A stretch of DNA of 64,000 bases from Candidatus Anstonella stagnisolia. Lineage in GTDB: Archaea; Micrarchaeota; Micrarchaeia; Anstonellales; Anstonellaceae. The stretch covers positions 64,671 to 128,670 of the forward strand of contig CABMCJ010000001.1 of the NCBI GenBank assembly GCA_902384585.1, in the 5' to 3' direction. This document shows positions 4,210 through 36,102 of the stretch, piece by piece (the stretch's first letter is position 1; every line of letters begins with the position of its first letter). The notes below the pieces were generated by a model, which saw only the letters and a list, made by a program, of their open reading frames with translations, had not been told where the DNA came from and did no database searches. Made by a program: the position numbers and the translations under genes.

Positions 4210-4318
4210 TTAATCACCCCTTATGATTGTTATACCACTCGAGGGCTAGTTTTTAAAATCCTTGCCCTTCGGCGTTCCAATCTTTTTAAATAGCTGCCTG
4301 GGCATAATCCCTCCTACT

Positions 4319-4483
4319 GGGGTCATGTGCTAACCTGGTATGCTTCCGCGTTCGGGACGCGGCGGTCCGTGTTCAAACCTAGGGGGAACCAATGCATTCC
4401 GAAGGTCCCCCTGAGGTCTCACCCCCTCTTCGAAACCGAAGAGTCAGGCTCTGAAACCTCTGGTGAAAATCACGGTGACCCCA
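4319..4483 (+). tRNA. tRNA-Pro(CGG) with a 92-base T-loop intron
   Basis: The acceptor strands GGGGTCA (4319-4325) and TGACCCC (4476-4482) pair fully, with discriminator A4483. The anticodon stem CCGCG/CGCGG (4346-4350, 4358-4362) closes a loop with anticodon CGG at 4353-4355. The T-stem CCGTG (4367-4371) finds its partner CACGG only at 4471-4475, 100 bases later. Removing 4378-4469 restores a normal seven-base T-loop TTCAAAT and a 73-base tRNA. The D-stem is weak (two clear pairs), though its loop AACCTGG is typical of archaeal tRNA-Pro. No CCA is encoded. Confidence 0.93.
4378..4469 (+). other. tRNA-Pro intron inside the T-loop (position 59/60)
   Basis: The splice sites form a complete BHB motif. 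The outer helix is the T-stem; the central helix is TTCA (4372-4375) with TGAA (4464-4467); the three-base bulges are AAC (4376-4378) and AAT (4468-4470); and an inner helix of eight pairs, including G-T pairs, joins 4379-4386 to 4457-4463 and beyond. The intron also contains a seven-pair hairpin CTCTTCG/CGAAGAG. Cutting inside the bulges gives the boundaries used here. The motif is read directly from sequence; splicing itself is inferred. Confidence 0.88.
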
Positions 4484-18675: not shown

Positions 18676-18714
18676 CATCGCTTTTATTTACCTATAAGTC
18701 AAAATCTCATTAAT

Positions 18715-18801
18715 GCAGGGATGGCAGAGTCTGGTCAAATGCGCAGGGCTTAGGACCCTGTGACTTTAGTGTCTGCGCAGGTTCAAATCCTGCTCCCTGC
18801 A
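18715..18801 (+). tRNA. tRNA-Leu(TAG)
   Basis: The acceptor GCAGGGA pairs with TCCCTGC, with discriminator A18801. The anticodon stem CAGGG/CCCTG closes a loop with anticodon TAG. There is a long class II variable arm and a T-loop TTCAAAT. No intron or CCA is encoded. It reads CTA codons. Confidence 0.95.
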
Positions 18802-18827
18802 TTTTTATTAACATAAATGGCGGTAAA

Positions 18828-36031: not shown

Positions 36032-36102
36032 TGGACGAGAGGGGATTGAACCCCTGGCCTCGTCGTTGCGAACGACGCGCTCTACCGCTGAGCTACACGC
36101 CC
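36032..36102 (-). tRNA. tRNA-Ala(CGC), with an unusual short T-loop
   Basis: The D-arm GCTC/GAGC, the anticodon stem CGTCG/CGACG and the anticodon CGC are clear on the minus strand. The acceptor GGGCGTG pairs with CTCGTCC with a G3-T70 wobble, the identity element of tRNA-Ala, and one T-T mismatch. The T-stem AGGGG/CCCCT leaves a loop of only six bases (TTCAAT) rather than seven. No CCA is encoded. It is probably functional, but the T-loop deserves a check. Confidence 0.88.

Follow-up and report, generated by a model that had tools for sequence, protein, structure and literature searches.

Positions 4319 to 4483 of the window (the whole 64,000-nt stretch of Candidatus Anstonella stagnisolia DNA that was analysed) hold a tRNA-Pro(CGG) gene with a 92-nt intron between positions 59 and 60 of the T-loop, as the original prediction had it and as direct reading of both exons bears out. 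Exon 1 comprises the acceptor sequence GGGGTCA, the anticodon CGG (4353–4355), the T-stem sequence CCGTG, and the T-loop bases TTCAAA up to A59 at 4377, whereas exon 2 supplies T60, CACGG, TGACCCC, and A73. Removal of the intron restores a complete tRNA, with the spliced product folding computationally into a full cloverleaf of −33.9 kcal/mol. The spacing of an upstream TATA-like sequence fits archaeal promoters, and this sequence may function as the promoter of the gene. The features of the locus, and a tRNA-Leu(TAG) gene that serves for comparison below, are the following.

4283–4292, plus strand: candidate TATA box TTTTTAAATA, ∼27 to 36 nt upstream of tRNA-Pro(CGG) (direct reading)
4319–4377, plus strand: tRNA-Pro(CGG) exon 1, positions 1 to 59 (direct sequence reading, fold of the spliced product)
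4372–4375, plus strand: UUCA (positions 54 to 57), 5′ strand of the BHB central helix (forced folding, pairing scan)
4377–4426, plus strand: conserved repeat core, ACC-UA-GGGGG..CCCCC-UGA-GGU plus CUCACCCCC (R2 match G000:C1:69047-69096, covariation)
4378–4469, plus strand: 92-nt BHB intron at 59/60, member of a hairpin repeat family (homology, covariance model, pairing scan)
4426–4443, plus strand: terminal hairpin CUCUUCG/CGAAGAG within the intron (folding)
4464–4467, plus strand: UGAA near the intron 3′ end, 3′ strand of the BHB central helix (forced folding, pairing scan)
4470–4483, plus strand: tRNA-Pro(CGG) exon 2, positions 60 to 73 (direct sequence reading, fold of the spliced product)
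18714–18802, plus strand: tRNA-Leu(TAG) with an empty 59/60 site, the sister-species ortholog of which (L102) has a family intron (ARAGORN, sister-species gene comparison)

Splice site geometry and gene detection

The splice site shows standard BHB geometry, with four UUCA/UGAA pairs as the central helix, the three-base bulges AAC and AAU, and the T-stem as the outer helix. The central helix and both bulges are thus as originally predicted, and so is the structured character of the intron, the seven-pair hairpin CTCTTCG/CGAAGAG of which maps to 4426–4432/4437–4443. Forcing the central helix together with the T-stem yielded −69.0 kcal/mol versus a minimum of −70.5, i.e., a cost of only 1.5 kcal/mol, and computed folds in which a short inner helix and two hairpins accompany the BHB lie 1.5 to 4 kcal/mol from the minimum. 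In the favoured fold of the precursor, an inner helix of 2 to 3 bp branches into the two hairpins. The perfect long inner helix of the original prediction did not survive this analysis: CUAGGGG/CCUCUGG (two G-U pairs) can be drawn, but its forced energy of −60.0 kcal/mol represents a cost of ∼10 kcal/mol, and the helix is neither the preferred nor a conserved structure.

It was anticipated that gene finders expecting a contiguous T-arm could miss this tRNA. Indeed, ARAGORN and Rfam listed four other tRNAs in the window, and neither reported tRNA-Pro(CGG), Rfam not even at an E value of 1. Searching the available genome (∼89% complete) with the mature sequence returned Pro-TGG, Pro-GGG, and this gene, with no second CGG gene, so the other intact copy envisaged as a counterargument did not turn up there. 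The intron itself has no Rfam match at E ≤ 1. A group I intron or another known RNA was discarded on this ground and on its length of 92 nt, since group I introns usually exceed 200 nt and contain a catalytic core. A guide RNA was likewise discarded, as a box C motif (RUGAUGA) was not seen by eye in the intron. As for the second role for which the intron was thought to leave room, mobility or a repeat origin is a better reading than an RNA function of its own.

Homologous introns and the repeat core

Homologous introns at 59/60 occur in eight tRNAs of this genome, i.e., Pro-CGG and seven others (Pro-GGG, Gly-GCC, Leu-CAA, a CAT tRNA, Cys-GCA, Ser-GCT, and Lys-CTT) whose anticodons were assigned by reading the loops. 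Plain DNA similarity matched seven of the eight, the query included (E values of 6.6e-43 to 1.4e-9), and six of the seven other introns are 78 to 88% identical to that of Pro-CGG; the Lys-CTT intron, outside these matches, was recognized by reading and a pattern search. Covariance model R1 matches all eight with E values of 1e-20 to 1e-28, the same eight being its training set. The shared portion corresponds to the first ∼50 to 75 nt, and the 3′ portion is variable save for the BHB-making end, which is commonly UGAAAA. Four of the seven other hosts contain an anticodon-loop intron as well. The orthologous Pro-CGG gene of the sister species (G001, a member of the same genus) holds a homologous intron. 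Because none of the eight genes passes the Rfam cut-off, they are hidden beside the ∼30 visible tRNAs, and 8 of the ∼40 tRNA genes found in this genome are thus missed by finders expecting a contiguous T-arm. A separate annotation issue concerns the gene that ARAGORN listed as tRNA-Stop(tta) (L013), whose anticodon loop suggests a tRNA-Lys(TTT) with a differently placed intron.

The 59/60 design, including a pairing intron end, is present in 26 of the 29 T-loop family introns scanned, versus 6.7% at random intron positions, a recurrence that is not due to chance. In one T-loop intron, that of Cys-GCA, the BHB pair shows a compensatory change (UCC with GGA). Selection for BHB pairing, and not descent, could account for the 3′ end that the T-loop copies share. 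A derivation of the intron 3′ end, GGTTGAAAA, from the T-arm GGTTCAAA by copying and mutation was also considered; the likeness is ambiguous, as these bases are at the same time under constraint from BHB pairing. Position 59/60 is not exclusive to this repeat, since the T-loop introns of Arg-TCG (26 nt, L024) and Gly-CCC (44 nt, L048 near 2854, minus strand) lack the core.

The core of the repeat is a ∼50-nt hairpin with a variable tail, described by covariance model R2 as RCC-UA-GGGGG, a loop, CCCCC-UGA-GGY, and then YUCACCCCC. Its covariation score reached 0.281 versus 0.106 in shuffles, with 0 of 500 shuffles as high, and dropped to 0.10 or less under slides. Across 30 sequences, the closing pair is A-U in 18, C-G in 10, and G-C in 1. 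At E ≤ 1e-4, the core was detected in 23 of the 295 genomes of the phylum, the window's genome included. All 23 belong to the window's own order within the Micrarchaeota and 17 to its own family, and the carriers include the named relative ‘Candidatus Micrarchaeota archaeon isolate RIFCSPHIGHO2_02_FULL_50_12’. Two scans of viral contigs, which as exact-pattern scans make a weak negative, did not find the core.

Location of the copies and signs of movement

We read 109 copies in their context, 57 of them classified by script and the rest by eye. T-loops account for 32 copies (all at 59/60), anticodon-loop introns for 9, and tRNA 3′ ends for 28; another 5 lie close to a tRNA, and the remaining 35, which include a few tandem partners, lie elsewhere. 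The exact shares are biased toward T-loops because R1 and R2 were trained first on T-loop copies. The association with tRNAs is not due to chance, since tRNA genes make up well under 1% of such genomes. Copies at 3′ ends mostly begin 0 to 3 nt past the discriminator base.

Several further arrangements were observed around these copies. Tandem arrays of the core occur in G002 (L144-L147, L120, and L123) after tRNAs, within T-loop introns, and at one non-tRNA place. The non-tRNA copies L111, L157, and L159 of G001 follow a near-identical sequence, GGTAACTTTCCACTGGC and variants, that is itself repeat-like; such a sequence also lies near L140 in the window's genome, there without the element. In the genome of the window, a GC hairpin of another type (AAACC..GGGGGG..CCCCCC..GGTTT, in many cases accompanied by CCTTGATTTCC) directly follows the 3′ end of several tRNAs: Val-GAC (L004), Ala-GGC (L006), Ile-GAT (L015), Ser-GGA (L017), and Trp-CCA (L021), as well as Ala-CGC, just below position 36032 of the window on the minus strand. 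The Ala-CGC gene of the sister species has an R2-type core at that same spot.

Comparison of the two sister species revealed precise presence and absence of the intron at orthologous sites, as in introner-like elements (intron-making repeat families). The Ser-CGA, Leu-TAG, and Lys-TTT genes are uninterrupted at 59/60 in the window's genome (G000) and interrupted in G001, with matching exons. Pro-CGG is interrupted in both, and its insertion is therefore probably older than their split. Direct repeats of the upstream flank, 13 to 39 bp long and ending ≤4 nt from the element, accompany 9 of the 87 testable copies, as opposed to one case among 1,385 random placements and one among 855 swapped flanks. 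Among these 87, target duplications are confined to copies outside T-loops and absent from T-loop copies. At two tRNA 3′ ends (L194 and L139), positions 59 to 73 are exactly duplicated, starting where the T-loop introns sit; this is suggestive, at two loci. As a general trait of 3′-end copies, the duplication was rejected, being exact in these 2 of about two dozen scorable loci and partial in one more. A Y1 transposase (Y1_Tnp) was not found in five of the eight genomes searched (G000, G002, G004, G015, and G018), all of which carry copies.

Probable origin and predicted processing of the T-loop introns

A BHB intron at 59/60 alone is of a known kind, and the wider finding is that this one belongs to a structured repeat family, copies of which would become tRNA introns. 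Noncanonical positions, 59/60 among them, have been described for archaeal BHB tRNA introns (PMC4090602), and tRNAs with multiple introns are listed for ARMAN-1 and ARMAN-2 (PMC4033280). Those introns and the present ones have in common the position, the 4-bp central helix, the 3-nt bulges, the type of EndA substrate, and two-intron tRNAs, whereas a single structured family at 59/60 in eight DPANN tRNAs, with a core that also occurs outside introns, is particular to our case. For one locus of Caldiarchaeum, a mobile element has been proposed to accompany the gain of a tRNA intron (PMC3293823), in a paper whose introduction states that no direct evidence had linked disrupted tRNA genes to mobile-element integration and which then argues for the link at that locus. 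Intron gain is tied to mobile DNA and tRNA target sites in that tRNA-Thr gene as it is here, but the sequence involved there is 1.8 kb long, bears a recombinase, and concerns one locus, unlike our ∼50-nt non-coding repeat with its many loci. Eukaryotic introners (mentioned in PMC11782384) are likewise families of dispersed elements whose insertion gives rise to introns; they are spliceosomal, whereas the introns reported here are of the BHB type and would be spliced by an endonuclease. In the literature available without subscription, our searches turned up no dispersed repeat described as combining the roles of T-loop intron, neighbour of tRNA 3′ ends, and non-tRNA element. The Pro-CGG intron family thus gives direct insight into a way in which tRNA introns of archaea may originate: since the same repeat occurs as an intron, as a tRNA 3′ neighbour, and as a non-tRNA copy with duplications, and since filled and empty sites can be compared, the origin of such introns becomes testable.

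These observations are probably best explained by an introner-like mobile repeat that turns into a BHB intron on landing in a tRNA loop, with tRNA-Pro(CGG) as a working single-copy gene. The Pro-CGG intron would then not have been made for its gene. It would instead be one of the copies that a short, structured repeat belonging to a single micrarchaeal order has left in T-loops and anticodon-loop introns, at tRNA 3′ ends, and elsewhere. T-loops would be good landing sites because UUCRA occurs in nearly every tRNA, so that one intron end (UGAAAA) gives a cuttable BHB almost anywhere. The gene anatomy, the homology, the BHB pairing, the precise empty sites, the target duplications, and the type of endonuclease are seen in the sequences themselves; mobility, the agent behind it, splicing, and the order of events are what we infer.

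Intron transposition among tRNAs is known from Thermoproteales (PMC4090602 and PMC4033280), and an ordinary tRNA-to-tRNA transposition of that type, with spread among tRNA genes only and the outside copies as debris, is a rather unlikely alternative origin. The intron position and the similar, recently gained introns in unrelated tRNAs match these published descriptions, and homology extends over the whole intron among T-loop copies, 3′ end included. Against this reading, and apart from the difference in clade, the core is also placed exactly downstream of tRNA 3′ ends and occurs at unrelated loci where target duplications end at its left edge, and it forms the tandem arrays seen in G002. Another rather unlikely reading, although one compatible with mobility, is that the conserved hairpin acts as a functional RNA (for example, as a signal for processing or for protein binding) and is retained by selection in tRNA transcripts rather than being a selfish repeat. 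The strong covariation of the core, its recurrence at tRNA 3′ ends in several genomes, and the other GC hairpins right after several tRNAs of this genome speak in favour of this reading, but sister-species orthologs of the tRNAs often lack the hairpin, which is also found with target duplications outside tRNAs and has no Rfam match.

REP/BIME and MITE-like repeats are likewise short, palindromic, non-coding, dispersed, and sometimes tandem. The present repeat differs from them in that Y1 was not found in most carriers searched, the target duplications vary, tRNAs are preferred, and no terminal inverted repeats were noted. It was not classified as a MITE in view of this lack of noted inverted repeats, the 13- to 39-bp range of its duplications, and the position of the hairpin inside the ∼50-nt unit, nor was it assigned to IS200/IS605 or REP-RAYT, given the five carriers in which no Y1 gene was detected. 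A single-strand DNA element of the IS200/IS605 or REP/RAYT type, moved by a Y1 (HUH) transposase, is very unlikely despite the small palindromic unit, the tandem arrays, and the lack of noted terminal inverted repeats, which would fit it; to our knowledge, duplications of variable length are not expected of the Y1 mechanism. Least credible is a degraded pseudo-tRNA, i.e., a dead Pro-CGG gene with an unspliced insertion. In its favour, the UGG tRNA-Pro could decode CCG codons through wobble, but neither exon shows damage and all stems pair in full, gene and intron are retained in the sister species, BHB pairing persists in 26 of 29 relatives, and the same fate would have had to befall eight tRNA genes together, among them the only Cys-GCA found.

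Within the favoured explanation of an introner-like repeat, a more specific and tentative scheme is an archaeal introner: a mobile, non-coding repeat of ∼50 nt whose insertion would produce long target duplications of variable length and whose target in tRNA genes might be staggered from 59/60 to the 3′ end. One outcome would be an element after an intact tRNA, with the exact 59-to-73 duplication seen at L194 and L139, and the other a BHB intron at 59/60. Such a staggered target would account for the exact position of the intron.

As for processing, the T-loop UUCA of the precursor is predicted to pair with UGAA at the intron 3′ end, whereupon an epsilon2-type endonuclease would cut both bulges, a ligase would join the exons so that the T-arm could form, and a circular intron would be released. 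Noncanonical introns are reportedly accepted by endonucleases of this type (PMC12397907 and PMC4033280). The genome encodes, on G000:C4, an EndA of 393 aa with full-length likeness to the ARMAN-2 epsilon2 enzyme (4fz2, E value of 2.7e-128), in which the catalytic Y/H/K residues and the Y-K of the ASL align with those of ARMAN-2 (residues as named in PMC12397907); the genome thus has the kind of enzyme able to cut relaxed or noncanonical BHB motifs. A second protein, of 196 aa and with both tRNA intron endonuclease domains, is encoded at L222 1453-2043 on the minus strand (G000:C4:793539-793772 region). By eye, its catalytic His is apparently missing, and a third endonuclease-domain match of this kind is present in most carriers searched.
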